From: a virus
Virus record (IMG/VR): IMGVR_UViG_3300010412_000005
Span: 1 to 64,000 of that record
Reading direction: 5' to 3' (one strand)
Length of the DNA: 64,000 nucleotides
Below the pieces are notes generated by a model. That model had not been told where the DNA came from and ran no database searches. It was given only the letters and a program-made list of their open reading frames with translations. Shown here piece by piece: positions 36,001 to 60,437 of this stretch (position 1 is the first letter of the stretch; every line of letters starts with the position of its first letter). The translations under genes and the position numbers were made by a program.

Positions 36001-37541
36001 TCCTTCCTCGCGCTGGTGACATGATGGCTAATCAGGTTGCAGCTGAGACAGTGTTCTCAGCTATGCACGCAGTAGAAAGCAGCCTTCGGCACAACTACCT
36101 GAGAGCTAAGGATCGTGGTGCTGATCCTCGCATCGTTGGAACAATTCTTCCAACTGATGTGCTGCCGCGTTGGTTCAGGCTTCCGCGCAACAATCTGTCG
36201 GCGCTGTCTGATCTGAAGAACTGGTTCCAAGGTGCTGCCGTTGATCTCAAGGGCGCAATCAATGACTTCTATGATCGCCTTGATGCTGCCGGTGATGATC
36301 CGAAAGCTCTTGGTGAGGTTCGGTTCCTTGATCATGAGCAGATCTGGAATCTTGCTCAGCAGCATCTTGAGGATGTTAACGTGGCAACGCCCGCCAACCG
36401 TCCAGCCATCGCAAAACGGAACACGATCAACCGTATTCTGTTCGCACTCAAAGGATGGAGATGGAACATGTTCAGCAAGATCATGGACATGATGGGTGGT
36501 GCCATGATGAAGCATGAGAGCGTGGCGCTAAGAGCATGGGAGAAGTTTGGAAATATGTATTACATCCTATCCGCAGCAGCCATCGGTGGTCTCGCTGGGT
36601 ATTGGTTGTTGGAGACGCTGACAAGGGCGATCTACCTTGCGCTATTCGGAGAGATCCGAAGCGTCAGAAAGCTTGAGGATGTGTCTGCTAAGCCAACCGA
36701 AGTTGCTGTCGGAATGGCATCCATCGTTCCGTTCCTCGATACCGCTGTGAACCTCACGTTCAACACGCAGCCTTCCAAGGCAAGATTCAGTCCTGGAAGT
36801 CTGGTCGACAGCATGATGCTTCAGGTCATGAACTACGTTGCTGGTGCATACAACAGCAAGGATCTGACTTACGGTGTCGACCGCGCTGTCGTGACGTTAC
36901 AGCCGACAATCGGCAAGCTTGTGATGAACAGGATGCCGGGTGCTACCGGCAAGATCGAGAACTGGAATGCCAGCAGGCTCCTGATCAGGCATGGCGAAGA
37001 TTCGTGGCTCAGGGAGTCAAGGTTCGGTGGTCAGATGTCTGGAATGTTCGTGACTCCATACACGCCAATCGCTGACCGCATGGTGAACGCAGCCATGCAG
37101 AACGATATCGGAAGGGTCCAGGAAGAATACATGGACGGCGTGACTCAGATGGTGATGAACGAGAACATCCCATACGAGGAAGCCCAGCGTCGTATGCGTC
37201 AGATGTTCACCAGTCGCAATCCATACGACCGCGCATACAAGCGCAGGCTGACATCTATGGAAAGGGCTCAGGTCCTCAACAAGATGGACATGGACGACAG
37301 GGACAGAGTCCAAGCTGTTGAGCGCAAGTTTGAAGCAGCAGCCAACGCCATCGGCGCGAACGTGAACTTCGAAAAGCAGGAGCGTCTGTTCAAGGCTGGA
37401 AAGACAGCAGTATCGCGGTTGCAGGCCATTCGAAAGCAGAGACGTGCAATGCTCATGAGCAACTCTGCAGCTCGCAGGGCGAGCATAAACATCATGGATC
37501 GCAGTCGTGGACTGTTGACTCGTGGACGAGTCTTACTATGA
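24057..37541 (+). CDS. Giant internal virion protein (4,494 aa)
   Basis: One uninterrupted frame of 13.5 kb encodes a 4,494-residue protein, more than a fifth of the window. Visible parts, with approximate residues: a proline-rich tail (1-45); glycine-rich hydrophobic stretches at 160-210, 237-252 and 315-335 that could insert in a membrane; A/P-rich linkers near 600; a long coiled coil at 920-1165; a degenerate zincin-like EELAHA site at 2644-2649; charged helices at 3685-3760; a hydrophobic segment at 4167-4200; and a basic tail from 4440. The order resembles large polyvalent phage proteins ejected into the cell. I see no DxDGD or HExxH motif, and no clear T7-like RNA polymerase motif. It is the last gene of the structural block. 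Its enzymatic functions, if any, are unknown. Confidence 0.85.
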   Translation: MPESYDPFSDLQDPNVAVSEPPLPPAPGRPAAPQEQQFDRKQFVVDVLEDIERSPEYQAYKRNRKEAALKEELRQQRQRTADFGESVLGNLLHLKSGDLQLAKIGAIFSGWANRKLGMPEAAAVADRKADEYRQEQKEIRSAIDGLNMGAVARTAGQFGESFIVSSPTLVVPGTAATAAARAGLGVAGASMVGLGAGAGVGGGISGISVYDDARDQYIAQGFSEEEASEMAKYPGWVSGIGTAAITALFGRTGVERSAFLKLPKDKVIGVLRQVFNQAGLEGLEEGADEIYQKITGYLTYHPDMPVEQAISEVGAAFGLGMAMGGGVEILGQIVNMSPPEIKALNEREFPRPQERPKTRKEAEGSPILPASTPKQGQTKPTVKSVQSNEEAARQLWGAMKPEERLKVIGPQGAAAPLPLEAINWEDLTEEEQLKVYDQFNLSVEPVGGRIPATAPAMPTAEDLAENERLTKAMRMSLIGSPEHEAAWAAKEQLKAKYGGHDLTKIGTEVPVAEAAAPAEPTAPGDQAWATRLSPSDSLAVRSAEPIDPTTITSVTKDTNDAGQTVYAIIYDNGKYIGYDDNPAWELHPLFGKKITPAAPAAPAEPGALANHADQVTVPQGIPASENTAYRSLETNPQITVEEFAGMDNEQRANHARSIGLNATGLSYAVGHNATVTENDILLLKTAYDQARARGQQLADESSKRTLTDAELNELSQLGQVENAMAEAIGAATDTGSAGFTLRKLPNYRPNFRGLINEPKRQSNQPEVKAAKNRAVTEVTAQTSDIPTTLATNLPDDQEQLAREQVFKGLKPAEFSPAQAKIYKGRDRANYDKRVLELRALAFIAPTLARGETLVFPDTATLGKIKKNHPGIYRLLQDEISRLTTPPRADTPSQEAAASTPTQDLPKNEDQSNPLSLKEMSKSAVEHFISTLNLLKQAAESKVRSAKHVKKQKSVLAKQGKTLKEFKKVQALHAEALQEVSRIEKRVAGLRSQLAEAAAVAPTAENARSILTTLVSRTQNKLRLARINSQRLQEQHDSLIAQAQAALDAVPVGPASPTTLAKIADLRARAETLGKKKMAQVKTVESLQAEIKEYQRQIEDIKRMPKDAPIDREAIRSQIKDLEARRQRVSEKIPGRAEAMDTLRKRLVDLELQYRKAFLEEVDERSGGKVSEFMQKREAAGAEYRGTSWAIANIRAALATYGYQFDVQPYVRKFVEREVTDPVTGQKAVIKEYTRRIGGTVGAVIAQRLRAGDVEVAEQFEANDFLTIRPVPNFFVREGEEINWPEAAKSFLTLIEKPTEAQKKSAEGVTSSDSFVAWFKENIVPAVMGIQERLSKAEAALTELQNSVSDFGLTKQSTWSYDAKSNEFKWGIDSFLAPDPNYVVWMSEINSRSPLGSDPSSTVVIPPGAGQSLPLEPDFEGEQVKIPHVHPGDRPQTKEGMFNPGKGDVTWQIAYYTQDDDGRMGDTIVVLQRSHHRVFHIVTIKDGVVVEDVRAPQDKTTGRTNYKTAVQAAQSKLKGKIQSAFWTAERGFQIPTVYSLSPLTDGTVPSNVSGQGSVLWTPAVELDSIEDALYRAAAAGELRPGMSKDAISKAVTKAVAGISPWHYSAYKKSFQAQRYWRSQAENIIRNATQDAIMATQIASSGRKPNTEVLARAFGIANPTFTPKKMPKLELAQAEYIRRALSVPRGTTDFQETVEVESTFEVKYPRTTQTRENGSRVVSIELDHPTAPAVLGTPYFRRTTPLVAKQEDSIIITKDGRAYGWFVFTEATTAAEKNNIFATIDGNPSATAYTETVTKRAPRMKMDPADRVEHAEDYLQSRVVQRLEQPTNNPTTQQLAAEAAATVDKLRETKTGRDILQNFLEDARDVRLGRSRFVNNMLRLFNTASFSEQYAVQVDDSTVERYVDVSIPNVMEKTRVLVEANTTNEEAYAAAVSQLVDQMSMAVSPQMLRIFGVSGATYSEMSYEPNLDGYVRLKKGMEAPENRVRIKELNDIADLGKNHPSYKLVKGRFTMGVGYERMAELLAEVGLNPSLLTKPKPGQNVQLEFVGDDGVTKIMHTIATPKTNERVLRRKTKAGKVVETKIPFESVVVGKMFDYYVERIQQIYKRIQDHQVARANMKALVARRLFAEAFRLPIIEGPFKGVLLQAKNQQRNPRHQMLGRAKAVIGAEQAAAGKKAEEEYLPEIDTSGFYEYRLVSNKIWTKAKFETDENVKFQASFIPLGTVLLQVESEGEFHNRQTVSTNAMEAEEVELERKKGETDEEYEERVEMAKLKSRFDVKAVEAFLAVEKQPKTGRHFARIVIRGGTKAKPEWETIYRVDLQKLQNSGLAKPFTKEETKSGKTDGWYINRHAVNNSAWWEVAKPDRRDYLSPEDFANYYPHKLGLLPGDVLAQARWVSMVSEGSDAERIINERVSGLSSTSVGTFNQKITEAAPDTFSATRFNMEDVEGGNLMDWLEENLSKSAKGIEILKRIHSIDPLAELTPEGRDPWQIVRDEILVINGIPIGKDATKTQEQLALADKIEKSLNRVHESRVSGGVQFRGGGRRTRISDVNPDVINKPAIGKAAIRELINTENNGLSPRAKRLANLMLDVLPDTILEDLTFVITPGYEIGNDATVEYTGSFSHAWRIARFVSTSGSVHTAAEELAHAAAMFLPAEHKGAVEEYRQIEIRQALENPTTPEIVKTFLKDMEANGGAFTSEDFMHRRGNQYLLPYYHLINTDEFFAHNMVAATDRKGRTNLQKAVDKAKSIISGFLKGIKKAMRMMNAQRDSYFDELIAKFEAGDFEVTANGGFLHEINKDVDMGAVAVAWTAGQVKRQAETIPVSTAGGPALAFTKAQRGTVIAAGNVEPYTILSALTAKREAQGRKLSAKAKQICLIDNFQEVIETVRNVFKVPIGQFKDTITNLPAVWLKEQTILAASSSVNFIRERMNKVKKARDTWMAKLTSPKFIQDMRKFAKLKIEVLGQEAIAARLEERIKSHLALLRARLADPNLDPNSPLAANAAREIDLYESYMTYSMGIAQKVEQMITALSLTEQGNELLQNPWGNLDPRAVTKAYKDTAPPPEQLQVGNAIIEAAAYFIATEPAIRQLMAAAVYQADPEVANLTDQLTMDMTNMMDELVKAPAGLRAVGKGDDLVNKFMRLIRATQKSTAAETKAKTVMRAQQIKLRKVINRAQMLDEAYEFYQELMADPDWIAYEGEIADLAGALHIPENWKHVGSDPVSGIVKMPLPMTAPKVTTSGTENAYHVVKLHDNLARWEAERVKVQESIDQMTQWLVNNGNDETLDAKYFKSMIKYGQMLLDSSLVNDIQGNHQGGFNFINAIFNKWTAMWEGIARSAPVRAIQNSRIAVRAWSDSMLLMNKWYQKWGDRIATLLHKATDSHSDIVDISDRNKSVYDWFNEVGRELFHLANEGYDPKAGDTLPDAQIEITQDDINCLKEMVTAADEAYEIDVTRGREVIPSRTVTDEFIPGMPYQRRAMKLVQYMLPRTFNKAAMDFTKKWLIEHAGYDADRNNYSFRDMAGATELLDQHWYLLKAFLSDRDLGFTDKKSPLEVGAYPALLEKIRNEEITNVEDFLAALDTFSITEENFDARQQFWKDFFHLQKGIYNKAVTDKSSETDSQRKGVYIPFEQENSFTRGRGQRIAPYAWYNHGFHSTAQTMSFMLNGSSHYLNWVSRSVEDSILVLKDMQDDYQKRIDALEGKREPSKETRKRRLIEETKANRQAMRLNEERIKLEDIDSTIKALRDFRTELQKVFASEGKLLEEETLQWNRFFGLYMGGAISSFRTGIQNMLQSAIGYSSWRLQRLRGGIFSVWPQHAFRLTWDLAQMAPYSAIRAIYDAAPFIGKVHYIKALKEMGMLFSVSNYQKYGLANIPRQVTLTLNELFSDMVQDLADGAWKRGRIYRELAERGLNNPFNTRYHLESVAESFTSLGRITYKETDKPVAAEGPVDWVWKQMWNVLKTTGKGMLGAVDIGMALTIRPFLPRAGDMMANQVAAETVFSAMHAVESSLRHNYLRAKDRGADPRIVGTILPTDVLPRWFRLPRNNLSALSDLKNWFQGAAVDLKGAINDFYDRLDAAGDDPKALGEVRFLDHEQIWNLAQQHLEDVNVATPANRPAIAKRNTINRILFALKGWRWNMFSKIMDMMGGAMMKHESVALRAWEKFGNMYYILSAAAIGGLAGYWLLETLTRAIYLALFGEIRSVRKLEDVSAKPTEVAVGMASIVPFLDTAVNLTFNTQPSKARFSPGSLVDSMMLQVMNYVAGAYNSKDLTYGVDRAVVTLQPTIGKLVMNRMPGATGKIENWNASRLLIRHGEDSWLRESRFGGQMSGMFVTPYTPIADRMVNAAMQNDIGRVQEEYMDGVTQMVMNENIPYEEAQRRMRQMFTSRNPYDRAYKRRLTSMERAQVLNKMDMDDRDRVQAVERKFEAAANAIGANVNFEKQERLFKAGKTAVSRLQAIRKQRRAMLMSNSAARRASINIMDRSRGLLTRGRVLL
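25840..25866 (+). repeat. Three tandem 9-base units encoding an A/P linker
   Basis: CTCCTGCAG occurs twice in a row, followed by CTCCTGCTG, inside the giant gene. It encodes a short PAAPAAPAEP linker. The length is a multiple of three, so copy-number change would keep the frame and vary the linker length. Confidence 0.8.
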
Positions 37542-38316: not shown

Positions 38317-38701
38317 TTCCAACAGCTTTCAGGTATTTCTGGAATGCTTCTCTGCACAGCCACTTCGTTTTGCTTGATCTGATCACATCATCATCGCTGT
38401 GAGGAGTGCTGGTCTCGACGATGACGTTCGAGGAATCAACACCTATGAACGAGTGCCAAGTCTTGCGAGGAATAGTTACGCAATCAGATGGAACAAGCAG
38501 CGTGCATTCGTTGCCTATGACAAGGATCACCCGGCCACTCATAACTGTGAACGTCTCGGTCTTCTTCGGGTGCTTGTGGTAGCTGCACTGCCATGCCTTG
38601 TTGAGGATGAGAATCTTGCCGCAGTATAGAGAGTTGTTCTCAAGCCACAGCTCTTGACCCCAGTCTTTGTGGTGTATTTCCCAGGTGCGTTTCTTGATCA
38701 T
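38024..38701 (-). CDS. Cupin protein with antisense-encoded tail (225 aa)
   Basis: Residues 1-125 are a clear single-domain cupin of the type II phosphomannose-isomerase kind: WGQELWLENNSLYCGK, then the metal site YHKHPKKTETF...SG, and IPRKTWHSF near 80. Such proteins isomerise or guide sugar phosphates in nucleotide-sugar pathways. From about residue 130 the sequence turns S/A/P/R/K-rich and low-complexity, because this part is read antisense through the last 293 bases of the plus-strand glycosyltransferase. The true cupin domain ends at about 38320. The tail may be an accidental extension after loss of a stop. Confidence 0.72.
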   Translation of the reverse strand: MIKKRTWEIHHKDWGQELWLENNSLYCGKILILNKAWQCSYHKHPKKTETFTVMSGRVILVIGNECTLLVPSDCVTIPRKTWHSFIGVDSSNVIVETSTPHSDDDVIRSSKTKWLCREAFQKYLKAVGIKTPSDVDRSASSASPAPPVPKRLDVSHIGRRSAGSQAACSDNGASKAAAAHRDGRSKRGKGGRGSASASPSGSKRKPQRSNRGKPYRSLPAGDTLL

Positions 38702-40218
38702 AGGACCATCTTTCTCATTTCATCTACGGCGTTTATTACTTGGTCGATTGTGACTGCACGCATACACTCACCGTTGCTCTTGGTGAATGTCGTTCCTCGT
38801 TCTCTATGCCTCGCTCCAATCTCGGGGAAAAGATCCTCATCAGCCTGAAGTGTCACGCACCATCCAGAGCTTAGGATGAACTCTGGATATGTGACTCCGA
38901 ATATGGCAATGGATGGGAGCTTTTGAGACATGGCTAGATGAAGTGGAAAGCTGTCCAGACCTATGAACATGTCTGACTCTGCCATGATTGCCGCGCTTTG
39001 GTGAATGTCAGTGCGTCCTCTGTAGTCTAATGAAGCTGAGATTGGAAACGTGTTGTGACTTCCAAGGACAATCACCGCCCATCCGTTCTGCTTCAAGTAA
39101 TTCGACACTGCAGCAAATCCACTCATGCTCCAGTTCTTTCCAGCCCATGTGGTTGGACCTGGGGCTATGACTGCTCTTGGCCTGTGAACCTGGGCCAGTT
39201 GTTGCTTAGCCCATTCAGTGCTCTCCTCATTTACAGGCATGTCCAGAGAATAGTCAGTCACCTTCACATCAGCCACTTCAGCGTAGCTGTCGATGATGTG
39301 CTTCATCGGCCTGTTCTCATACGCCATGTTCAGGTCAATGATCAGTGAGTCTGCACCTGGACGCAGGCTTTTCGTAGCTGTGTGAACCAGAGGATTGTTC
39401 GCAAACAGAGCTGGGAACTGCGTGATGATGTATATTGGAGACAGGGGCTTATCCTTCTTCAACTGCTTGATGATTGGAGTTGTCAGAAGAACGTCTCCAA
39501 TAGCCGCATCGCGCTTGATGACGATTGGGTAGTTGAACTTGCGCACCTTCAGATAATGCGCCCATACCCTACAGAGTGTCAGGTGGTTTTTCTCCTGAAA
39601 GAACCGAACGCGAGATACATGACGGGCAGTTGTGTTTGGCCAATGAAGAACCCTGATGCCAACTCTGTGTATGCTGTATCCTTTTTCCCTGCACCGCAAA
39701 CTCAGATCAGAGTCCTCTCCGTAGGCAAACTCCAGGTAGTTGCTAAAAAGACCCAGCCTCTTGATAACTTCGGTCCTGCACATGAGGCAGGAGCCTTCAA
39801 GGTATTCGAATGCTCCTGGCTTTCCGTGAAAGTGCGGCGTGATCTCTGAGCAGTTTCCGAAAGGTCCACTAAGAGCAGCCTTTGGATCAGTCTTAAATGG
39901 TTGCTCAAGCTGTCCCAGCCAATGGGGTGGAACGGCGGTGTCGTTGTTGAGCAGGACGAAATAGGGAGTGTCGCATAGTGAGAACGCATACTTGTGTGGA
40001 ATTTGGAATCCGTAGTTCTCAGGATTGTTGACTATCGTAACTGAACCTGCTGGAAGCTTCTTCTGCACAGACTCGAATAGATTGAGAGTCCTATCTGTGC
40101 TTCCGTTGTTCGTTAGGATGAGATTGTAATCCCTGCTGTGCGCTATGACTGACTCAAGGCACCGCTTGGTTACGTCCACCTTATTGAAGGCAACAATGCT
40201 GACAGTGTATCGCGCCAT
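38698..40218 (-). CDS. Fused GT2-GT9 glycosyltransferase (506 aa)
   Basis: Residues 1-230 are a GT2 (GT-A) domain: TVSIVAFNKVDVTKRCLESV, ILTNNGSTDRTL, the DxD site LLNNDTAV, and EFAYGEDSDLSLRCREKGY. Residues 235-506 are a GT9, heptosyltransferase-type GT-B domain: VIKRDAAIGDVLLTTPIIKQL, PGPTTWAGKNWSMSGFAAV, FIGLDSFPLHLAMSQ. One chain therefore holds two transferases that could add consecutive sugars to an LPS or virion glycan. The gene overlaps the cupin start by 4 bases. The exact donors are not predictable. Confidence 0.9.
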   Translation of the reverse strand: MARYTVSIVAFNKVDVTKRCLESVIAHSRDYNLILTNNGSTDRTLNLFESVQKKLPAGSVTIVNNPENYGFQIPHKYAFSLCDTPYFVLLNNDTAVPPHWLGQLEQPFKTDPKAALSGPFGNCSEITPHFHGKPGAFEYLEGSCLMCRTEVIKRLGLFSNYLEFAYGEDSDLSLRCREKGYSIHRVGIRVLHWPNTTARHVSRVRFFQEKNHLTLCRVWAHYLKVRKFNYPIVIKRDAAIGDVLLTTPIIKQLKKDKPLSPIYIITQFPALFANNPLVHTATKSLRPGADSLIIDLNMAYENRPMKHIIDSYAEVADVKVTDYSLDMPVNEESTEWAKQQLAQVHRPRAVIAPGPTTWAGKNWSMSGFAAVSNYLKQNGWAVIVLGSHNTFPISASLDYRGRTDIHQSAAIMAESDMFIGLDSFPLHLAMSQKLPSIAIFGVTYPEFILSSGWCVTLQADEDLFPEIGARHRERGTTFTKSNGECMRAVTIDQVINAVDEMRKMVL

Positions 40219-40219
40219 A

Positions 40220-40981
40220 TCACAGCGACCCTCGTTCTCTCAGCCACTGATGTGCGAAAGTTGGGTGGTATCCTTTATAGGATTGAAGCTTGTCGCACCA
40301 GTCGCCAACTTCCCACCAGTCATGCCTGTTCTGTTGTTCAAATTCAATGAACCTTTTGTCTGCCTTGCCAAACCAGAGCATGTTGTTCTCCCTGTTCTTC
40401 CTGTAGAACGCCTGATAATCGCGGAGGAATCCGTAGTGAAAGATGCGAAGCTCAGGGTGCCTCTCTGCACGTTCTCTTATAGGAGGTTCGCCATCGTGAT
40501 ACGGTTCATCTGATGGCATGAACAGCTCTGACGGACCCATTCGAGCAACGTATCTGCCAACGCAATGGCCATCAGGTATCAGCGTCCACGCATCTCTTAC
40601 GAAGTTGAGTCTCTCAAACCATGCGCATGCTTTGCGTTCTGCAATATCCAAGACTCGCTTGTGGCATTCCTCGCTGTCATCGAGAACCTCGTCTGCATCT
40701 AGCCACAGTTGCATTGGATGCTTCAGCAGCTTACGAGCTTCGTTGATCGCATTCACAAACCAACGTGGCTCACCGACAGGATACGTCCAAGGGACCTGGA
40801 CAACCTTGATCCTTGGCCATTCAATCGACAGTGCAGCCAGTCTGGATTGAGTGTCGTCTGTGCTTTCAGCATGACAGATGACTATCTCATCGCATACAGG
40901 GACTAAAGACCGCACGCACTCTTCGATGCAGATATCGAAGGTGGTAGCGTTTCTGACGAATGTGTAGCCAGAGATCTTCAC
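40220..40981 (-). CDS. GT2 glycosyltransferase, paralogue A (253 aa)
   Basis: The N-terminal part shows the GT2 pattern: MKISGYTFVRNATTFDICI, VPVCDEIVICHAESTDDTQS, with the acidic LWLDADEVLDD as DxD. Length and blocks match the neighbouring paralogue at 40978-41739. The C-terminal region contains FHYGFLRDYQAF and WWEVGDW, shared with relatives that lack membrane segments. It is cytoplasmic and co-transcribed with the cassette. The linkage and donor are unknown. Confidence 0.87.
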   Translation of the reverse strand: MKISGYTFVRNATTFDICIEECVRSLVPVCDEIVICHAESTDDTQSRLAALSIEWPRIKVVQVPWTYPVGEPRWFVNAINEARKLLKHPMQLWLDADEVLDDSEECHKRVLDIAERKACAWFERLNFVRDAWTLIPDGHCVGRYVARMGPSELFMPSDEPYHDGEPPIRERAERHPELRIFHYGFLRDYQAFYRKNRENNMLWFGKADKRFIEFEQQNRHDWWEVGDWCDKLQSYKGYHPTFAHQWLRERGSL

Positions 40982-41739
40982 AGTGCTCCGCGTTCTTTGA
41001 GCCAGTCGTGGGCAATAAGGGGATACCTGCCGTCATGGGTAAGGCACCGATCCTTCCAAGGAACGTAGTGCCAGTATTCCTTACCCTCGTTGACAGCCTT
41101 TTCGATTGTTCTGTCCCATGTTCCGAAGAACATGTTCTGCACGTCCTTGACCTTCTCAACCATCACCGATTGCTTGCGCATGAATCCAAGATGGTAGATG
41201 ACGAACGAAGGATGGTTTCTGCCCATACGGCGCATGTCGCATTCTCCGTTCGGTTGCGGTTCATCGGCTGGCATGAAGAGTTTCGTAGGCCCAAGTCTGG
41301 CAACTTTGTGACCGCATACAACGTCATGAGGAATGATTGTGCGGACGTTTCTGATGAAGTTGACTCGGTAAAACCATCCACACCAACCATTCTCTGCCCA
41401 TCTTCGCATGACTTCATAGGTCATCTTGTCGTCGTTGAGGACTTCGTCGGCATCCAGGTAGAACTGACAGTCATACTTCAGGTGCGCACGAACCCTGTTC
41501 ATCCACTTGATGATACAGTAAGGATCGTTGACTGGGTTCGGCCAAGGTAGGTTGATGACTCGTAATTGAGGAACCTGAGATTTGAGACTTTCGAGAAAGT
41601 CACGCGTTCCATCATCAGAGTCGGAGTCGCAAGCCACGATCTCATCGCATACAGGAGCCATTGATCGGATCGCCAGATCCACGCAATAGTCATGCTTGAT
41701 GACGTTCCTTGCACATACATAGCCAGAGATGTTTTTCAT
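40978..41739 (-). CDS. GT2 glycosyltransferase, paralogue B (253 aa)
   Basis: The start at 41739 overlaps the stop of the upstream gene (ATGA); an in-frame ATG at 41757 would only add six residues. Key blocks are MKNISGYVCARNVIKHDYCV, PVCDEIVACDSDSDDGT and FYLDADEVLNDDK, giving the DxD. Paralogue A shares the same 253-residue length, block order and the ending W(L)(R/K)ERG(S/A)L. Tandem duplication followed by divergence of substrate binding is likely. It ends 4 bases into paralogue A. Confidence 0.87.
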   Translation of the reverse strand: MKNISGYVCARNVIKHDYCVDLAIRSMAPVCDEIVACDSDSDDGTRDFLESLKSQVPQLRVINLPWPNPVNDPYCIIKWMNRVRAHLKYDCQFYLDADEVLNDDKMTYEVMRRWAENGWCGWFYRVNFIRNVRTIIPHDVVCGHKVARLGPTKLFMPADEPQPNGECDMRRMGRNHPSFVIYHLGFMRKQSVMVEKVKDVQNMFFGTWDRTIEKAVNEGKEYWHYVPWKDRCLTHDGRYPLIAHDWLKERGAL

Positions 41740-41987
41740 TTGAGTCTCTTCATCCAATCTTCAGCTGCACCAGCTTTAATAAGGAACTCCTTCAGAACAT
41801 TGATGACATCCTCGCGACGTGCATTGGACACGTAGTTCATCGTTCCTTGCTTGTCCTTGTCGTCGTTAAACCCGAAGGTGAACAACACAAATCCAAACCC
41901 ATCAGGAATAGTTGCCTCGATCTGCTGAGCGGCATCTTGGAGGTATTGCTTATATCCGTCTGGTAATGGCTGGGGATCACTTGTCAT
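41736..41987 (-). CDS. Hypothetical 83-aa protein inside the sugar cassette
   Basis: The protein is compact: GFGFVLFTFGFNDDKDK, TMNYVSNARREDVINVLKEF. The aromatic-glycine strand followed by an SNARRED helix resembles a small phage protein often annotated as unknown. It is not obviously sugar-related but is stop/start coupled to the genes on both sides, so it shares their expression. Confidence 0.65.
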   Translation of the reverse strand: MTSDPQPLPDGYKQYLQDAAQQIEATIPDGFGFVLFTFGFNDDKDKQGTMNYVSNARREDVINVLKEFLIKAGAAEDWMKRLK

Positions 41988-45014: not shown

Positions 45015-45603
45015 TTTGGGGTTGTGGGTTTGGAGTTGGTTCGACAGCTACCTGATTCGGTTCGCTGTTCCGAAGCGCTTCTGGGTGTGTCGGTCTGCCG
45101 TGCATCTCTCTGGCATTTGGCCCAGCAAAGACGGCTGGCTTCAGCAGATCTGGGTTAACGTCATCGCCCTTGGTCGGGCGTGGACGCAGGTCGATAGACT
45201 CAGAGTCCACCCCAAAGGCAGGCTTGGCAGCGCTTGGAGCAGGACTAGGGGCAGGGCGTGGCGCTGTCCTGGGCGTAGGAGGCGTTTGGGGTTGGGGTGG
45301 TGTCTTGGCACCCGACAAACTCCTGACGGCTCCTTGGGGCATCTTAGGCTCAGGAATGGCCTGTTGCTCCTCAGCCTTGGATTTGGGCCTGATCCTCCCC
45401 TTACCGATATACATGCACTCGTAGTCATTCGCCTTGAACGTGAACGACATTGTGCCTGGAACGCTGCTTGGGGTTCTACCCCAGCACAGCAGCTCGCTGC
45501 CTTGGGTTGATATTACGATGCCAGTGGTTCCAATGTCTTGGCCCTTAACTACTTGCACGCAATCGTTTGGCTCGATGATGATAGCGCCGTCGATCTCTTT
45601 CAT
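44827..45603 (-). CDS. KOW/SH3-like protein with proline-rich tail (258 aa)
   Basis: Residues 10-65 look like a small beta barrel (VQVVKGQDIGTTGIVI, LLCWGRTPSSVPG), as in KOW or SH3-like domains. From about residue 75 the chain is disordered, rich in P, A, Q and R, with the last 60 residues strongly basic. The start overlaps the stop of the integrase gene by 4 bases. The last part overlaps the 94-aa gene. A nucleic-acid or ribosome-associated role would suit the domain, but it is not shown. Confidence 0.6.
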   Translation of the reverse strand: MKEIDGAIIIEPNDCVQVVKGQDIGTTGIVISTQGSELLCWGRTPSSVPGTMSFTFKANDYECMYIGKGRIRPKSKAEEQQAIPEPKMPQGAVRSLSGAKTPPQPQTPPTPRTAPRPAPSPAPSAAKPAFGVDSESIDLRPRPTKGDDVNPDLLKPAVFAGPNAREMHGRPTHPEALRNSEPNQVAVEPTPNPQPQNERPESKQEAPKKKVQRKNIFRKGARKGNKRRASLGIPMEGTSGVPGEGALRQASPPPETQD

Positions 45604-46592
45604 AGGTTCTTTCTGAGTGTGAGCATTGCTGTCTTTGCTGAAGCCGCTGTCGGCACAAAGTAATGGTCGAGTGTCTGCCTATCCTTGATCCCAACGATTG
45701 AGCGAACCGCTTCGCTGTCTGCTCCGTTCGTTATCAGTCTGGTAATCAACGTCCTACGGAATGTGTGGAACGTCTTGTCGACGATCTTGCACTTCTTGCG
45801 GAGCCATCGGTTGAACTCAAGGACTGCCTGATACCCTCCGCGCTTGTCGCTGGTCATTGCCTGGAGGACAGGGCAGAGATACCCACTGTCGTCTGGAGGG
45901 TTGAACTTTAGGTAGACTAGCAGCTTGGCCAAGTCAGACCCAGACAACCAAGGTATGCACACAGACATTCCACTGCGCTTGGTCTTACGTGGGACCAGCG
46001 TGATGACCTGCTCTTGCCAGTCAATGTTCTCGTAGCGCAGGTTGGCAACATCAACCATCCGAAGTCCTGTGTTCCAGCCGACAATCGCTGCGTAGTTCCA
46101 GATCGTGCCCTTCGATTTCTTGACGATCAGATCGTATTCATCCTCAGTGAACGTCTCTCTCTTGAGGGGCTTAGATCCAATGCGAACCCTGACGTCATCC
46201 CAAGGGTTCCCATCTATTGAGCCCATCTGTAACAACCACGCAAAGAACTGCTTAACGTGTATTCGGTAGCTGTCTATGGTGTTGGGAGACAGGGCTCTAT
46301 CTTTGAGAGCCTCTATCCAAGTCTCAAGCAGCTTCGCTGTGATGGTCTGTGTGTCTAGCAAGTCGGTGAATGCGATGAAGTCTGTTAGAGCTTTGCGGTC
46401 TTGCCTGATGGTTTCGTAGGTCAGCTTTCTCTTGGCTCGTGTCTCCAGATATTGCTCAGCTGCCTGAATGATGGCCTGCTGATTCAGGTTCACCTTGGCC
46501 GATGGGCTTCGCTTTTCGAGGGCGACCGATAGTCTTGGGAGCTTTTCCGCTTTCTTCGTAGTCGGATCTGATTCTAATTTGTTGGGTGACAT
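45600..46592 (-). CDS. int: Tyrosine recombinase (integrase) (330 aa)
   Basis: The protein has an N-terminal SAM-like DNA-binding domain (about residues 40-125: LTYETIRQDRKALTDFIAF) and a catalytic domain. The catalytic residues are R178 (NTGLRMVDV), K near 202 (RKTKR), H276 and R279 (FHTFRRT), and the nucleophile Y311 (LDHYFVP). The position equivalent to the third histidine/tryptophan (nine residues before Y311) is I302. The start at ATG 46592 is favoured over a TTG at 46616. The gene overlaps the HTH gene by 137 bases. It would insert or excise the phage DNA, implying a temperate lifestyle. Confidence 0.88.
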   Translation of the reverse strand: MSPNKLESDPTTKKAEKLPRLSVALEKRSPSAKVNLNQQAIIQAAEQYLETRAKRKLTYETIRQDRKALTDFIAFTDLLDTQTITAKLLETWIEALKDRALSPNTIDSYRIHVKQFFAWLLQMGSIDGNPWDDVRVRIGSKPLKRETFTEDEYDLIVKKSKGTIWNYAAIVGWNTGLRMVDVANLRYENIDWQEQVITLVPRKTKRSGMSVCIPWLSGSDLAKLLVYLKFNPPDDSGYLCPVLQAMTSDKRGGYQAVLEFNRWLRKKCKIVDKTFHTFRRTLITRLITNGADSEAVRSIVGIKDRQTLDHYFVPTAASAKTAMLTLRKNL

Positions 46593-46896
46593 AACCTTGT
46601 GTAAGGCCACGCCCAATAGTCTTCAGTCCATCTCGACTCCAGGCGCGGCGTAGATAGAACAGTTTCTTGCGCGGTCGGAGAAGGTCCAACCCGCAACCAT
46701 CAGCAAATCTGAGAGCGTCACCAACAGCCACGTGCTCCCAGGTTGGCTGCAGCGCAATCCAGTTGGTGACCTGATACGATAGCCCAGCGTCCTTAGCTAT
46801 CTCGCGGAGTGACTTAGCCTTGGCCTTTCTGCGTGCACAGAGTCTGGCTATGCAGGGTGGAATTTGGTCGAGATGTTGAAGCAGGTTGCTCTTCAT
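46456..46896 (-). CDS. HTH-type DNA-binding protein (146 aa)
   Basis: Residues 25-60 resemble a helix-turn-helix: KSLREIAKDAGLSYQVTNWI. They are followed by a helical domain with WEHVAVGDALRFADGCG. The rest is basic and becomes low-complexity where it overlaps the integrase start (KTIGRPRKAKPIGQ, with an AT-hook-like GRPRK). A regulator or an excisionase-like partner of the integrase fits the position. The start overlaps the stop of the loader gene (ATGA). Confidence 0.65.
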   Translation of the reverse strand: MKSNLLQHLDQIPPCIARLCARRKAKAKSLREIAKDAGLSYQVTNWIALQPTWEHVAVGDALRFADGCGLDLLRPRKKLFYLRRAWSRDGLKTIGRGLTQGYVTQQIRIRSDYEESGKAPKTIGRPRKAKPIGQGEPESAGHHSGS

Positions 46897-50507: not shown

Positions 50508-50892
50508 GGATGACAGTCTCGGTCCAACTTCCTTTGATCCTTTGAGCCATAACCCAACGAAACGTCGGGTATGCCTTGGCAGCTGCCCTGAGTTTAACCT
50601 TTGCGTCGTCATAGATGTATTCACCTTTCACTTCCCAAAAGGTATTCACATCCCCAACGAAGAAGTCGCATTTATACCACGCCTTACCTTCACCAACTCT
50701 TAGGTTGATATCCTGACAGTGGATGTATTTGTAACCCCTTGCTTTGAGGATTTCATACCACTCCTGCTCAGCCTTTGTCATCTCGACAGGCTGATGCTCC
50801 ACACGCTTAACGTGTGGCTCTGGCGGTGGAAGCTGCCCAAGCTGGGCAAGGGCTTGCCGTTGATACTTCTCTGGTAGATCAGAGATCTTCAC
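50461..50892 (-). CDS. DUF1064-type PD-(D/E)XK nuclease (143 aa)
   Basis: The core matches the DUF1064 pattern: VEMTKAEQEWYEILKARGY, then KCDFFVGD and the catalytic FWEVKGEYIYDDAKVKLRAA, giving the D...ExK active site. AYPTFRWV is the usual following strand. Small nucleases of this family occur in phage recombination or host-DNA processing loci. It starts 14 bases before the DUF2800 stop. The substrate is unknown; Holliday-junction or structure-specific cutting is one possibility. Confidence 0.8.
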   Translation of the reverse strand: MKISDLPEKYQRQALAQLGQLPPPEPHVKRVEHQPVEMTKAEQEWYEILKARGYKYIHCQDINLRVGEGKAWYKCDFFVGDVNTFWEVKGEYIYDDAKVKLRAAAKAYPTFRWVMAQRIKGSWTETVIHDPTTGVDASQTVSD

Positions 50893-52039
50893 GAATCGGC
50901 CTCACCCGCTTCTGAGGTTCTTTGACAACCAGATTCGGTTCGATCTGTTCACGCCATGCCTTGAGCGCAGCTGCTTTGTTGCACTCAGCCGCATCCATGA
51001 AACGTGACACCCATACCTCCCTAATCTTTCCTATTGGAACTGTCAGAAGCGATGCGAACTCCTTGCCATCGCTGAAGTATTCCTTCACCAACTTGAATAG
51101 ATCGTTCGGGTGGTTGACCGTGTGACCTGATGGATGGTCATAGATCTCATATTCCTTGATCTCTCCACGTGCAACGCGCTCCTTGAATAGGTCCCTCACC
51201 TTCGTGCAGACCTGCTCGATCTGCGTGAGCTTTGGATATAGCGCAAGAAGCTGCTCATTGCTGAGAGAGTTGCATAGTGAGAACTCATGCTGCAGCACAA
51301 GCCCAAACGATTGACGTTGTGGGCACACCGCTGACACAGGACAGTATGTGCAGTGATCTCCTGGTATGCGTGGCTGGTTTGCGTCGTCTGCTTTCCACAG
51401 CGCACGCAGCAGTTGATTGCGTATGGAAAGGCAGTCGTCGACAGTCATCCTGACTATGATGGCGCGTGAGCTAACAAGAGGTTGGAAGATCGCACCGTAA
51501 AGCTTTTCGAACTTCAATCCATTGAGCTTCTCATCGAACGCCATCAGCGTAAGGTATGTCTGCAGCTGCCAGTTCTTTGTGGCAACAGGAACAGGCTTTG
51601 GTCCGCGCTTGTAGTCTTCACAATACCACGTGCCTTGTCCGTCAGTTCCGAAGTAGTCTGGCTCACCAGACATCACGAACTGGTCCTTGTGCTTCATCCA
51701 TAGACGCATGCGCACCCAGTTCTTGTTGATCTTGTCAGGACCACCAAACAGATCCTGAACTGTCATGTCGTGCATCAGTGTGCACTTCTCCGCTACGAAC
51801 TCCTCGATCTCACCAAGCCCAATCTCAACAGGCTTGCCGTCGATCATGCATTCGATGGCATCGTGAGTCTCGGTGCCGCTTTTCGCGATGGGGCTTTCTT
51901 CTTCTTGCGAGTGCTCCCACGTTTTTTTGGCGTAGAGGTAGCCTGGGCAGGCGATGATTCGGTGGGCTTCGCTTGCGCTTGGGAGCCCTCTGCGCTCATC
52001 GGTCTGATCCTGTTCTGCGGTCTGATTGATTTGAGCCAT
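50879..52039 (-). CDS. DUF2800/RecB-type PD-(D/E)XK exonuclease (386 aa)
   Basis: The N-terminal SASEAHRIIACPGY is the DUF2800 signature. The nuclease core is SGEPDYFGT, then WYCEDYKRG (D...ExK) and QLQTYLTLMAF. The Fe-S-like CTYCPVSAVC follows (about residues 235-244), probably completed by the early C31. This is Cas4/RecB-like and likely works as the exonuclease partner of RecT, resecting DNA ends. It lies two genes downstream of recT. Its first 196 bases overlap the zinc-knuckle gene in another frame. Confidence 0.85.
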   Translation of the reverse strand: MAQINQTAEQDQTDERRGLPSASEAHRIIACPGYLYAKKTWEHSQEEESPIAKSGTETHDAIECMIDGKPVEIGLGEIEEFVAEKCTLMHDMTVQDLFGGPDKINKNWVRMRLWMKHKDQFVMSGEPDYFGTDGQGTWYCEDYKRGPKPVPVATKNWQLQTYLTLMAFDEKLNGLKFEKLYGAIFQPLVSSRAIIVRMTVDDCLSIRNQLLRALWKADDANQPRIPGDHCTYCPVSAVCPQRQSFGLVLQHEFSLCNSLSNEQLLALYPKLTQIEQVCTKVRDLFKERVARGEIKEYEIYDHPSGHTVNHPNDLFKLVKEYFSDGKEFASLLTVPIGKIREVWVSRFMDAAECNKAAALKAWREQIEPNLVVKEPQKRVRPIREDL

Positions 52040-52320: not shown

Positions 52321-53235
52321 TTATTCTTCAGGGAACATTTCGTCTGATCCGCCGTCTGGTGCAGGATTCGACGAAGGAGGCTCTGCCCCTGGAGGGGCAT
52401 CGTTGGGGTCTGGCTCCTCTTGCAGTTGTCGTCTGGCTCTTTTCTTCGGAGCCGGTGCTGCAGGTGGTGTGGTCTGCTCTTTCGTGAGATCGCTCTCCCC
52501 TGGCTCAGGAGTCTCAACACTTGCAGGGATGTCGATTGCTCCCTCGATCTCGGCTGCTCTGCTGACAACCTCACGCACGTCAGGCGACAGGTCAGCAGTC
52601 TTAGCCAGCTGTTTGAGTGCTGTCTTGGCCCACATTGCTTCAGGCCATTGGACCCAAGGGCTGGATGCGGACGATGCACCACGCGCCGACTTCTTGACTC
52701 TCTCGACGTAGTCAGCATCAACCCACACGAAATCCTCGCCGTCCTCACTGTTCTTTTTGTAGGACACGTAGGCTACGGCACCGATCATCTTGCCGCGATC
52801 ACCGCCAATGCGCGGCTTGTGAACCATGTGCCTGTTCGAGCCAAAGCTGATATCAAACTCATCATTCGCACAGACAGTGGCTGCATACACGTTGGTAACG
52901 GTTGCGCTACGGCGCATCATCTTCAGGTAACCCTGGTATCCGATCATCAACTGGCACTCGTAGTTGGGACCATTGCGGAACGGAATCAGGTAGGCTTCAC
53001 CTGTGATTGAATCAGGGACAAGGCGGATCTGTGCGAGATCCATCATGCATTGCATCAGGCTGTCCTGAGTGCAGCGATACAGCAGTGGGTTCTTGCGCAT
53101 GGCTGTCAGCGCCACACGAACGAAGAAGTCTGCTGGTATTTGAGAGCCAAGGGCTTTCGAAAGTTCACCCTTCTGCCGGTCAAGCAGAGCGATGATGTCC
53201 TTGGGTTTGGTAGTGGTAACTGCGGTTGTCGTCAT
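52321..53235 (-). CDS. recT: RecT-family single-strand annealing protein (304 aa)
   Basis: The core carries RecT motifs: ALTAMRKNPLLYRCTQDSLM, LAQIRLVPDSITGEAYLIPF, CQLMIGYQGYLKMMRRS and KTALKQLAKTADLSP. RecT coats single-stranded DNA and anneals homologous strands. The C-terminal 80 residues are a flexible, proline/acidic-rich tail, often used for contacting SSB. The operon order recT-zinc protein-DUF2800 nuclease gives a complete annealase/exonuclease pair. Confidence 0.93.
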   Translation of the reverse strand: MTTTAVTTTKPKDIIALLDRQKGELSKALGSQIPADFFVRVALTAMRKNPLLYRCTQDSLMQCMMDLAQIRLVPDSITGEAYLIPFRNGPNYECQLMIGYQGYLKMMRRSATVTNVYAATVCANDEFDISFGSNRHMVHKPRIGGDRGKMIGAVAYVSYKKNSEDGEDFVWVDADYVERVKKSARGASSASSPWVQWPEAMWAKTALKQLAKTADLSPDVREVVSRAAEIEGAIDIPASVETPEPGESDLTKEQTTPPAAPAPKKRARRQLQEEPDPNDAPPGAEPPSSNPAPDGGSDEMFPEE

Positions 53236-56563: not shown

Positions 56564-57487
56564 CTAATCGGATTCGATGTCGTCGTTGATGAACTGGCGA
56601 GACGGGCGAATGGTAATCATCTTGTCGATCTCACCCTTGAGATCAGAGAACTGAGATGCCATGCGCTCTCTCATTCCGTCATCACCACGCATCATTTCAC
56701 TGAACGCTTTGGGATCGTCCACGTCTGACATGACAGACTCAGCCTTCTTAACAAGCTCTGCCAAGTCTTTATCATTCATGATGTTCCTTGCATTGAACGT
56801 CTCAAGGAACTCTCTGATGTTTTCAATAGTCGAAGACTTGAAGGTCTTCGCTTTCTCGCCTGGAGCGACGGTCAGTCGCTCGACAGCATGGTCGATGAGT
56901 TTGGAGAATGACATGCGTAGTGTCACAAGGATCTTCTCCTGCGCATCCAACCATATCTGCTCACTCTTCTTCTTGGCTGCGAGGTAGAGTTCTTTCGGAA
57001 GATTCTCAGGCACGCCAAACGAGACGGGTAGCCATGTGAACCCGAACTTAACCTCCATGATGTTCGCCTCTGGATAATCACCAGGGCTGTAGTAAGGACC
57101 AAGCTCCTGTCTGTCCAAGTATTCGATGGACTTGATGTCAGCGCACAGGTCAGGAACCATCACAGACTTTAGCGTCTGCTGGTCCTGTGTGATGCGTGAG
57201 TTGATGGAGTCATACTCGTTGAGTTTGACCATGAAAATGCCAACCTTGAAGAAGGATGGCATTGACCTGCTTTGGACCCAGGCTTTCGTCTCGTTCTGGA
57301 ACTGAACGATGCGGTCGTATTGCTTCGATGTAGTCAACCGCACAGTCTTTCGCAGGCGTTTGGCATTGACCTTGTCACGGTCTGCCTCCTCCTGTGATAC
57401 CTTGACTGTCTTGCGGTTTGACCAGCGCTGCACACTGAAGTTCAGAGCGCAGCAATCCTTGAATAGTTCTACACTGAGTTGCTTCAT
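56564..57487 (-). CDS. Hypothetical 307-aa protein, DUF3150-like
   Basis: The chain starts with a beta segment (LFKDCCALNFSVQRW) and then has long charged helices (RLRKTVRLTTSKQYDRIVQF). It continues with KFGFTWLPVSFGVPENLPKE and an extended helical C-terminus. The pattern resembles DUF3150-type phage proteins that neighbour AAA+ ATPases. That name is tentative. It overlaps the next gene by 4 bases. Confidence 0.6.
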   Translation of the reverse strand: MKQLSVELFKDCCALNFSVQRWSNRKTVKVSQEEADRDKVNAKRLRKTVRLTTSKQYDRIVQFQNETKAWVQSRSMPSFFKVGIFMVKLNEYDSINSRITQDQQTLKSVMVPDLCADIKSIEYLDRQELGPYYSPGDYPEANIMEVKFGFTWLPVSFGVPENLPKELYLAAKKKSEQIWLDAQEKILVTLRMSFSKLIDHAVERLTVAPGEKAKTFKSSTIENIREFLETFNARNIMNDKDLAELVKKAESVMSDVDDPKAFSEMMRGDDGMRERMASQFSDLKGEIDKMITIRPSRQFINDDIESD

Positions 57488-57747
57488 TCTTGCCTTGTTG
57501 ATTCGGCACGTTGCCGAGAGGTTATGTCTAAGACCCAGCCCATAGCCTTTATGACAGTCTCAAATGGAGCGTCACCAGGACCAGTAAGCCGCATCACTAC
57601 TCTATTCTTCTTATCGAACTGATACACTGTGTTTGATCGTGGAACACCGTAGACACCCATGTCTTTGAGAATACTGATCAACCCTTGCGTCCATGTGATC
57701 GCTCGATCCATTCCTTCTGGTGTGTTGATGTTCCATTCCTTCATCAT
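57484..57747 (-). CDS. Hypothetical 87-aa protein
   Basis: The start at 57747 has GAGGAAGG about 8 bases upstream and overlaps the preceding stop (TATGATG). The product is helical: TPEGMDRAITWTQGLISILK, then YQFDKKNRVVMRLTGPGDAP. It has no recognised family. It is stop/start coupled on both sides. Confidence 0.6.
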   Translation of the reverse strand: MMKEWNINTPEGMDRAITWTQGLISILKDMGVYGVPRSNTVYQFDKKNRVVMRLTGPGDAPFETVIKAMGWVLDITSRQRAESTRQE

Positions 57748-58136
57748 ATAGTTCCTTCCTCTCCGAATGTTGGGCATGGATCTGCATCAGCCCGATGCCA
57801 TAGATGCAGACAGTTCTTGGCGATGTTCACATGCACCCGTGCCTTTGGCCAGATGCTGATCGCCATACGTTCGTCTCCAATGAAGACGCGTTTGATCTCC
57901 TTCATCTCTTGATAGGATGGGAGTCTGTCCTTGTGGCTCACCGATACGTGAATCCATTCCTGGCCATCGCAATACTCAATGAACTCCTCGTTGTCAGGGA
58001 TGGTGATGATAACTCGGAGCGGCAGTGTCTTGTGTTCAAAGACCTTGCCTCGTGGACCCCAGTCTCCGAGTTGTTTCCAATACTGCCGCATCTCTGGTGG
58101 TTGCGGCAGGAAACTCTCGACGCTCGTGTATATCAT
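57744..58136 (-). CDS. Phage protein of DUF7694-like pattern (130 aa)
   Basis: The conserved run GQEWIHVSVSHKDRLPSYQE, then MKEIKRVFIGDERMAISIW and VHVNIAKNCLHLWH, matches a small family of phage proteins of unknown function. In these, a W-H-x-S/S strand pair precedes a helical region and ends with HLWH. It is likely a small alpha/beta enzyme-like or binding domain. It overlaps the following gene by 4 bases. Confidence 0.65.
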   Translation of the reverse strand: MIYTSVESFLPQPPEMRQYWKQLGDWGPRGKVFEHKTLPLRVIITIPDNEEFIEYCDGQEWIHVSVSHKDRLPSYQEMKEIKRVFIGDERMAISIWPKARVHVNIAKNCLHLWHRADADPCPTFGEEGTI

Positions 58137-58339
58137 GCGCGGAGTTTCTGCTTCTGCTTCTGGCTGCGGTTGCCTTGCTTCTGCCTGCGAACAGGACCAC
58201 CCATTCCTTTGCTGATCTCAGCAAGCAACTGCTCAGCCGTTGCGTGGTTTGCACCGCTGATCTTGTCAGTGGTAAACTTCATGCTGCCATCTGCCAGCAT
58301 TTCGAACTCGATCTCGTCGTATTGTCCTTCGTCTTGCAT
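58133..58339 (-). CDS. DUF2997-like protein (68 aa)
   Basis: Residues 1-45 match a DUF2997-like pattern: EIEFEMLADGSMKFTTDK, ATAEQLLAEISKGM. The last 20 residues are basic (QKQGNRSQKQKQKLRA). In cyanobacteria such genes often travel with the AAA+ (Ycf46) and Ycf35-like genes. Here it is immediately next to both, which is the main support. Confidence 0.6.
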   Translation of the reverse strand: MQDEGQYDEIEFEMLADGSMKFTTDKISGANHATAEQLLAEISKGMGGPVRRQKQGNRSQKQKQKLRA

Positions 58340-58347
58340 GTTATTCC

Positions 58348-58779
58348 TTAGTGTTTACCCCAGCAGAACCCAGTGAAACCGCCTTTGTCTTCCTGCTTTC
58401 CAAACTGCGAACCGAAGCCAGTGCCGATTCGCTTACGCAGTTTGCCTTTGCCAGTCTTCTGGTCATAAGAGAACTCCCAACCAGGAAGACTGGTGACCCT
58501 CTTCTTCATCATCTCCCAGATGTAGCTACGCTTGATCTCTCTCATCATAGCTTCATCACCCTGGTCTCGATACCACCGAAGGGAGTTAGGAACTCTCCTC
58601 CTGTCATACGTTATCACGCCAGTCCTCTGGTTGTAATTAACTCCATCGCCATAGACTGACTTGTTGACGTGATCGACAGACACGCTTCGCCAGCCATCTT
58701 TCTCAAGAGATCTGGCAAGTATGTCTAGGTCGAGTGCTAACATGTTCAGCTCATTGAGCTGCACCGTATCACATGGCAT
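58348..58779 (-). CDS. Ycf35/DUF1257-like protein (143 aa)
   Basis: The protein begins MPCDTVQLNELNMLALDLDI, an opening of many phage proteins of this set. It continues with an alpha/beta fold (SLEKDGWRSVSVDH, then GVITYDRRRV) and a basic end with GKLRKRIGTGFGSQFG. It is placed between the AAA+ ATPase and the DUF2997-like gene, an order found with Ycf46/Ycf35 partners. Role unknown; perhaps a substrate adaptor for the ATPase. Confidence 0.6.
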   Translation of the reverse strand: MPCDTVQLNELNMLALDLDILARSLEKDGWRSVSVDHVNKSVYGDGVNYNQRTGVITYDRRRVPNSLRWYRDQGDEAMMREIKRSYIWEMMKKRVTSLPGWEFSYDQKTGKGKLRKRIGTGFGSQFGKQEDKGGFTGFCWGKH

Positions 58780-58784
58780 AACTG

Positions 58785-60437
58785 TTACTCCTTGCTGGAT
58801 GGTTTAGTGAAACCGAATAGAGTTCCAGCCGCCTCCATCACGGTTTGTTTAGCCTGAGAACTACTGTTCCCAGGATATTGGTAAGGACCCTCGTATGATG
58901 CGCTGATGTAGTTGCCGTGCGCAGACTTGCGAAGTGATTCTATCCTGTCACGCGCAGAGATGGCAACAGGCACAACAAACGAACTCGCTTGCTTGAGCGA
59001 GCACCCTAGATTGTAAGCATTGAAGCAGCACTGCTTTATTTCAGCACCAGTCCAGCGCTCGTCAATGAACCCAAGCTCCTGCTCAGGGATCTCGTATTGC
59101 TTGCGGTAGATGTCCCAGATCATCTGCCGCTCATCATCATCAGGAAGGTCGAAGAAGAATGTGCCGAGACCGAAGCGGCGTCTCAACTCAGGAGGAAGAG
59201 CAGTAATCGAGTTACAGGTTGCAATGAAGATGATGTTTGATCTCGCCATAGAAAGGATGACTTGCAATCCGTAACGCAAGCGTGCCTCAGACTCGCCAAC
59301 GTAGCTCGCTTTCATGCCTGCGAAGTCAAGCTGTGCTGTCAGGATGCCAGCCTCGTTGCCGGTAGCCTTGGCCATCGCTGACTTGGCTGCACCTGGAGGA
59401 CCAATAAAGATCATGCCGGTCACGTCGTTGTCCTGCATCCAACTGAGCAGATACCCAGTCAGTGATGTCGTGACACCGCTCATGTCTGTGCCGGTGCCAG
59501 CAAAGTGTTTCTCGATCTCGTCGATAAAGACCACAAGCCTTGGCCTACGCTTACCATTGATCAGCAGCTTCATGAATGTCTTGATGTTGCTGCAACCTCC
59601 GATGGTAGAGAATGTCTCTGCACCTGCGAACACAGACAGGCCAGGGGTTCGGTTCAGCTCCATGATCTTCTGGCTACGCAGCAATCCCATCTCAACCTTT
59701 CCCTTGCGTATGCTGAGACTGAACACCTGCTCGACACCGAACGCATTCAAGCCAGTAAGCGTGTCGACAATGGAGTCAACGTCCTCCAACTTAGGAGTAT
59801 TGTCTGCGCCTGCATGAGCGTCTTGCCACGTGGATTCCGCAATCTCGGCAATCTCATCGTCGGTAGGTAGCGTCTGCCTCAGCGTGAGAACATCGCTCTT
59901 GAGTTCTCTTGGTAACTGGAATGAATTGCCCATCATGATGAGCATGCACGAGCGAGCCTTGAACAGATCTCTCAGGTTCCAGATTGCTTGTTTGATACCC
60001 TCATTCTCCATGAACCAATGAGCGTTATACATCACGAACGTGGTGTTCTTTGGAGCAACAGTAAGGAAGTCCAGGCATGCACCAGGAGCTTGAGTTGCTG
60101 ACTTGACGTTGTTGTCGAACGCAAGAACCTCACCTTTATTGTTCATGTCAGGTGGTTGGATCTCCTGCCCAGTATAGGCGACAAGCATCTGACACAGCAG
60201 CTGCCTGCCAGTGCTGCCCTTGATGCTAAGACATGACAGACCGTTGCACAGGTCCCACTTGAACAGAACAGGAGCATCGCTGATTGTCTCATACAATCTG
60301 GCGATGTTCATCAGACTGTCGCGTGGATCTGGAGTCTCAAGTGCCACAATAGGAACACCGCAGTTGCGTGCATACCTAAGTGTGATCATCCACTGGGACT
60401 GTTTCTTTTTACTTTCCTTCGGTTTCGCTTTGACCAT
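58785..60437 (-). CDS. AAA+ ATPase with permuted core (550 aa)
   Basis: This is an AAA+ ATPase of the Ycf46/FtsH-like phage type. Its motif order is unusual: the Walker B/DEIEK segment FIDEIEKHF (304-312), with SGVTTSLTGYLLSWMQD, comes before Walker A IFIGPPGAAKSAMAKATG (343-360). Then follow SYVGESEARLRYGL, the sensor strand IIFIATCN near 400, the arginine fingers LPPELRRRFG and FFFDLPDDDERQMIWDIYR. The Walker A glycine before K352 is alanine. The N-terminal 300 residues are a separate alpha/beta module. It likely remodels a protein or DNA complex; the target is unknown. Confidence 0.87.
   Translation of the reverse strand: MVKAKPKESKKKQSQWMITLRYARNCGVPIVALETPDPRDSLMNIARLYETISDAPVLFKWDLCNGLSCLSIKGSTGRQLLCQMLVAYTGQEIQPPDMNNKGEVLAFDNNVKSATQAPGACLDFLTVAPKNTTFVMYNAHWFMENEGIKQAIWNLRDLFKARSCMLIMMGNSFQLPRELKSDVLTLRQTLPTDDEIAEIAESTWQDAHAGADNTPKLEDVDSIVDTLTGLNAFGVEQVFSLSIRKGKVEMGLLRSQKIMELNRTPGLSVFAGAETFSTIGGCSNIKTFMKLLINGKRRPRLVVFIDEIEKHFAGTGTDMSGVTTSLTGYLLSWMQDNDVTGMIFIGPPGAAKSAMAKATGNEAGILTAQLDFAGMKASYVGESEARLRYGLQVILSMARSNIIFIATCNSITALPPELRRRFGLGTFFFDLPDDDERQMIWDIYRKQYEIPEQELGFIDERWTGAEIKQCCFNAYNLGCSLKQASSFVVPVAISARDRIESLRKSAHGNYISASYEGPYQYPGNSSSQAKQTVMEAAGTLFGFTKPSSKE

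Follow-up and report, generated by a model that had tools for sequence, protein, structure and literature searches.

Can an AAA+ ATPase keep its active site when the Walker B part of its core is encoded ahead of the Walker A part? Elsewhere in AAA+ proteins the canonical motif order, with Walker A in front, is the rule. The question arose from one gene in a 64,000-base stretch of viral DNA (the window; bases 1–64000 of a 76,545-base virus record). At 58785–60437 on the minus strand, exactly where the original prediction had placed it, the window carries an open frame of 550 amino acids (P0001), recognized as a Ycf46-like AAA+ ATPase by the Pfam AAA domain, its AlphaFold model and its relatives. 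The motif order in this protein had been read as a circular permutation within the core, possibly common to a family of phage proteins.

We located the motifs in the translated frame, all coordinates referring to the minus strand. The Walker B motif FIDEIEK (residues 304–310, 59508–59528) lies ahead of the Walker A motif GPPGAAKS (346–353, 59379–59402). Sensor 1 (strand IFIATCNS, 59208–59234) and the arginine-finger region RRR (419–421, 59175–59183) follow in normal order, and FDLP (429–432) comes after both the ATCN of sensor 1 and RRR, all as originally described. A YVG resembling pore loop 1 (379–381, 59295–59303; family consensus LVG) was recognized; its role is presumed from AAA unfoldases. 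The alpha0/GG segment (274–296, 59550–59618), with G281 in 111/111 proteins, has kept its normal place, and the C-terminal lid WTGAEI...CC...VVPV...ISASYEGPY (462–520, 58878–59054) is common to the canonical relatives. Pfam AAA matched P0001 with 52 bits (cut-off 21.2), in separate stretches. A second DExx motif past Walker A, which the original prediction had named as the possible true Walker B, was searched for in P0001 and found to be absent; the next strand is that of sensor 1.

The swapped order was found in many other proteins. Relatives were gathered from IMG/VR by alignment-based searches, which brought many, whereas a single-sequence search of viral contigs brought none. In 111 distinct proteins from viruses or metagenome bins, Walker B lies 41–53 residues ahead of Walker A, and not one of them has the canonical succession of Walker A, Walker B and sensor 1. 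In 96 distinct relatives of canonical order, Walker B lies 57–70 residues behind Walker A, the position that had been stated for standard proteins. The isolated phage Tunturi_3 (PP885686, finished genome, product “ATPase”) also has the permuted order, at 34–36% identity. Together, these proteins bear out the expectation of a family-wide rearrangement. Among the best 80 matches listed from GTDB species genomes, seven loci were permuted (L136–L142), all from metagenome bins, and the remaining loci in which both motifs could be placed were canonical. With respect to a prophage origin of these bin loci, we searched four of the bins and found no terminase close to the ATPase gene.

A few relatives had unusual gene structures. 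In L071 (5980–7941, on a contig shared with L127) the permuted ATPase has 653 amino acids, and an intein-like insert divides sensor 1 (ATC / CN); the insert gave 26.7 bits with Pfam Intein_splicing, under the cut-off of 35.8. The ATPase match of L069, like that of L077, is divided between two reading frames, perhaps by a frameshift or a sequencing error.

All four elements of the active site, Walker A, Walker B, sensor 1 and the arginine finger, are in place. The residues D306, E307, K310, N409 and R421 (111/111), and G346, G349 and K352 (112/112), are invariant in every aligned protein without a gap there, and R420 is kept in 97. The reported change of a Walker A glycine to alanine is present as A351. 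At this position, just before the Walker A lysine, permuted proteins have glycine (54), alanine (48) or serine (9–10 of the 111–112), while canonical relatives have glycine in 95/96 and alanine in 1/96. Because the residue varies between the three across the permuted group, alanine is no sign of a dead enzyme; 351 is a relaxed position in this group and not a mark of lost activity.

Alignment to the canonical relatives defined what had moved. One block, beta3-alpha3 (residues 297–338, 59424–59549), now stands ahead of the P-loop block and has changed places with beta1-alpha1-beta2-alpha2 (residues 339–398, 59244–59423); both blocks are supported by alignments, the AlphaFold model and residue couplings. 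Alpha0 with its GG motif before them, and beta4, beta5 and the lid after them, are unmoved. The proposal of a circular permutation was thus right in that the core is rearranged, on which the block-swap test, Pfam, the tree, AlphaFold and the couplings agree, but it does not extend to the whole domain, where the old ends would be joined and new ends created. By its alignment, the rearrangement is a transposition of two adjacent inner blocks, equal to a circular permutation of the beta1-alpha3 part only.

For the block-swap test, a profile from 53 canonical proteins was compared with 57 permuted proteins. In their native form all 57 matched in four out-of-order pieces each, with a mean best score of 104 bits. 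When the blocks were swapped back in silico, at cut points that we set by hand, each of the 57 gave one collinear match, with a mean of 322 bits. On the native core of 263–264 residues, Pfam AAA scored 54.5 bits over profile positions 1–62, and on the same core swapped back 75.1 bits over positions 1–124. The PHROGs family phrog_8638 matched the permuted proteins P0001, L006 and P0002 in four stretches, with no collinear full-length match for P0001, and P0003, L081 and L111 in a single stretch. No PHROGs family seen here therefore captures the swapped order.

The AlphaFold2 model of P0001, computed from an alignment of the permuted family only, had a pLDDT of 91.4 and a pTM of 0.86, with strands at residues 301–305, 340–345, 366–370, 402–408 and 426–428. 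Its active tier superposed on p97 D2 with Z 16.9 and an rmsd of 2.6 over 200 residues, a length that can be reached without the beta3-alpha3 block. The whole model superposed on p97 D1+D2 with Z 18.1 and an rmsd of 6.5 over 407 residues. We judged the strand order from residue couplings in the 111 permuted sequences (effective number 90) and not from the model coordinates. The normal AAA+ sheet has the order 5-1-4-3-2. When the ten possible strand pairs were ranked by coupling strength, the canonical neighbours 5-1, 4-3, 1-4 and 3-2 took the first four places, an outcome with a chance of 1 in 210 if pairs are exchangeable and one that held at three regularisation settings. Among 30 subsamples of 80%, 7 put all four of these pairs at the top, 22 put three of them there and 1 put two. 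The pairs at the cut ends, 300–399 and 301–398, had coupling ranks 6 and 7 of 18,145. The couplings back, but do not prove, a normal 5-1-4-3-2 sheet with changed connections. The original prediction had asked whether the FIDEIEK strand sits beside the P-loop strand. The couplings fit a normal sheet, but since beta4 lies between the two in such a sheet, the Walker B strand would not be directly beside the P-loop strand.

The N-terminal domain (residues 15–262, 59652–60395) matched the N-domain of the canonical relatives (hhalign E 2.9e-42), and this in turn matched the AAA core (hhalign 91%, E 1.3e-7). When the permuted N-domain was compared directly with the AAA core, hhalign gave no significant match, and the connection runs via the canonical N-domain. 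Together with the p97 D1 alignment, the profile comparison points to a tier that is AAA-like but degenerate, lacking Walker A and keeping the normal order.

Three other explanations of the core have to be weighed. An assembly or gene-calling artefact has a negligible probability, and we consider it ruled out: the order recurs in 111 distinct proteins from many samples, with one open frame each, and in the finished genome of a phage isolate. The protein could also be a degenerate ATPase, or one that only binds nucleotide, its motif order being disrupted and the last Walker A glycine lost (A351 in P0001; alanine in 48 and serine in 9 of 111 permuted relatives). This is very improbable, given that K352, D306, E307, N409 and R421 are invariant in >110 sequences, whether glycine, alanine or serine precedes the lysine. 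The intein-like insert of L071, too, falls within sensor 1, and inteins tend to favour such sites in active proteins. Marginally less probable again is a strand exchange at the level of the ring, in which each protomer's sheet is completed by beta3-alpha3 from an adjacent subunit and nothing is rearranged within the chain. Couplings cannot tell intrachain from interchain contacts, but the whole core is predicted with confidence in the monomer model, and the cut ends 300 and 399 are still coupled, which is what an old junction preserved inside one fold should give. We consider it very likely that P0001 has a classic-AAA-type, Ycf46-like architecture, whose core blocks were exchanged by a single rearrangement.

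With regard to its origin, the swap seems to have arisen once. We built a quick maximum-likelihood tree from 115 proteins, with the permuted ones entered in unrolled form (no bootstrap, unrooted, long branches). In it, the permuted group formed one side of a branch with an SH-aLRT of 96, so that one origin suffices. Since canonical order is the rule elsewhere, the permuted order would be the derived one, and a single event is sufficient. The adjoining canonical clade in this unrooted, long-branched tree included L111 and the planctomycete loci L143–L145. No protein with a duplicated P-loop or DEIEK motif, as an intermediate might have, was found among the permuted or Ycf46-like proteins.

The ATPase gene heads an operon: five genes follow it on the same strand, each spaced from or overlapping the last by a few bases. 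A DUF1257 (Ycf35)-like gene (58348–58779, 143 aa) starts 5 nt past the ATPase gene. Then come a DUF2997-like gene (58133–58339, 68 aa), a DUF7694 gene (57744–58136, Pfam 80.6 bits), a small gene with no family assigned (57484–57777), and a DUF3150-like gene (56564–57487, 307 aa), the most constant partner. The training set for the partner profiles came from loci like this one; with the window excluded, they gave E-values of 3e-10 for the DUF1257-like, 6.9e-19 for the DUF2997-like and 1.9e-71 for the DUF3150-like gene. Direct matches to the Pfam models PF06868, PF11211 and PF11348, respectively, were absent from the three window genes, and the names come from related groups. The group of the DUF1257-like gene matched a group with Pfam DUF1257 hits (hhalign 94.9%, E 4.5e-8), the positionally equivalent group in relatives reached 63 bits for DUF2997, and the relative L006 scored 25.3 for DUF3150 (cut-off 24.9). 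The AlphaFold model of the DUF3150-like protein is mostly helical (pLDDT 90.4), and no convincing relative was found in the PDB: the top Foldseek match had E 0.075, and the highest Z, 9.0, covered a helical bundle. The DUF3150-like gene of Tunturi_3 (L002 12678–13637, ORF96; profile E 3.3e-89) is labelled as an HNH endonuclease, possibly a misannotation.

With these profiles, trained on such loci, we detected the DUF3150-, DUF2997- and DUF1257-like genes in 104, 100 and 86 of the 109 permuted loci and in 34, 49 and 47 of the 84 canonical loci, respectively. The commonest order was ATPase-DUF1257-DUF2997-DUF3150, and the full set was also present in Tunturi_3 and in the bacterial loci L143–L145. 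The latter (Planctomyces sp. bin, Rhodopirellula solitaria and Neorhodopirellula pilleata) carry a canonical ATPase with the three partner genes on bacterial contigs, and a search with the phrog_2 terminase in the R. solitaria and N. pilleata genomes gave no match. In cyanobacteria, the DUF2997 and Ycf35 (DUF1257) genes adjoin the ferredoxin gene fed7 (PMC4284462).

The ATPase strand of the window also bears genes for an integrase (45600–46616), an exonuclease (50879–52039) and a RecT-like annealing protein (52321–53235), all by PHROGs, from which the virus may be temperate. A terminase-like gene is distant (8584–10104). This setting suggests that the ATPase gene belongs to an early or recombination region. 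Elsewhere in the window, a single ORF of 4494 amino acids (24057–37541) had no Pfam match at E 0.01, and three neighbouring ORFs (38698–41757) had weak glycosyltransferase matches.

The shared strand and region with RecT and exonuclease genes, and a weak similarity of the AAA part to the IetA defence ATPases, would fit a counter-defence or host-takeover system instead of a general remodeller for phage replication or assembly. We consider such a role unlikely, though less so than the alternatives for the core. The IetA match (24.3 bits) is far under the NCBIfam cut-off of 510, no partner matches any PADLOC model, and the same module was found on bacterial contigs.

Our preferred reading of P0001 is an active Ycf46-like classic-AAA ATPase of two tiers, the N-terminal one AAA-like but degenerate and the second one active. 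The Walker B block (beta3-alpha3) and the block with Walker A and pore loop 1 (beta1-alpha1-beta2-alpha2) would have been exchanged in the gene, probably once, in the ancestor of a large phage group. The chain would still fold to the usual sheet, but alpha3 would now connect to beta1 and alpha2 to beta4. Going by the family, subunits would form a ring and hydrolyse ATP via K352, D306/E307 and N409 together with arginines of the neighbouring subunit, and the pore loops would pull on or remodel protein substrates. The co-transcribed DUF1257-, DUF2997- and DUF3150-like proteins are its probable partners, acting as adaptors or regulators. For protein remodelling together with these three as the mechanism, we see about even chances.

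The closest known systems are the canonical Ycf46-like ATPases of phages and bacteria (phrog_8638; L081, L111, L143–L145 and RHph_I4 QIG76105.1). They have in common with P0001 the N-domain, the alpha0 GG, all AAA motifs, the WTGAEI lid and often the same DUF1257/DUF2997/DUF3150 neighbours, but their Walker A block precedes the Walker B block. Ycf46 of cyanobacteria and plastids (slr0374) is a relative by name in the annotations of similar phage models, and its role is not transferable; its loss lowers the activity of the EcaB carbonic anhydrase (PMC7496141). The AAA domains of p97/Cdc48, Vps4 and spastin resemble the fold of the active tier (Z about 16–17, rmsd near 3), and D1 and D2 of p97 are covered by both tiers of P0001; these proteins differ in their canonical order, differently specialised tiers and low sequence identity. 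A precedent for reordered motifs in P-loop NTPases is given by the circularly permuted GTPases YjeQ/YlqF and cpRAS (PMC2430557), which have a GTPase fold and a whole-domain permutation, not a swap of two inner blocks. Our literature search, in open-licence papers only, found no published permuted AAA+ protein.

We think it likely, if with somewhat less confidence than for the architecture, that this is an undescribed natural swap, now fixed, between the Walker A block and the Walker B block of an active AAA+ core, with a single origin in a large phage group. The altered alpha3-beta1 and alpha2-beta4 links may alter the way in which hydrolysis is transmitted into movement between subunits. Annotation profiles presuppose one motif order, which is regarded as invariable in AAA+ proteins, so PHROGs and Pfam split up or misinterpret the permuted group. 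As a natural rearrangement in which no catalytic residue is lost, the swap would reveal the connections in the chain that the motor can do without. Canonical and swapped proteins with the same partner genes would form a matched pair for studying how the nucleotide state is signalled to the pore and to the neighbouring subunit. The swap also marks a conserved module, with DUF1257, DUF2997 and DUF3150, in phages and on bacterial contigs.
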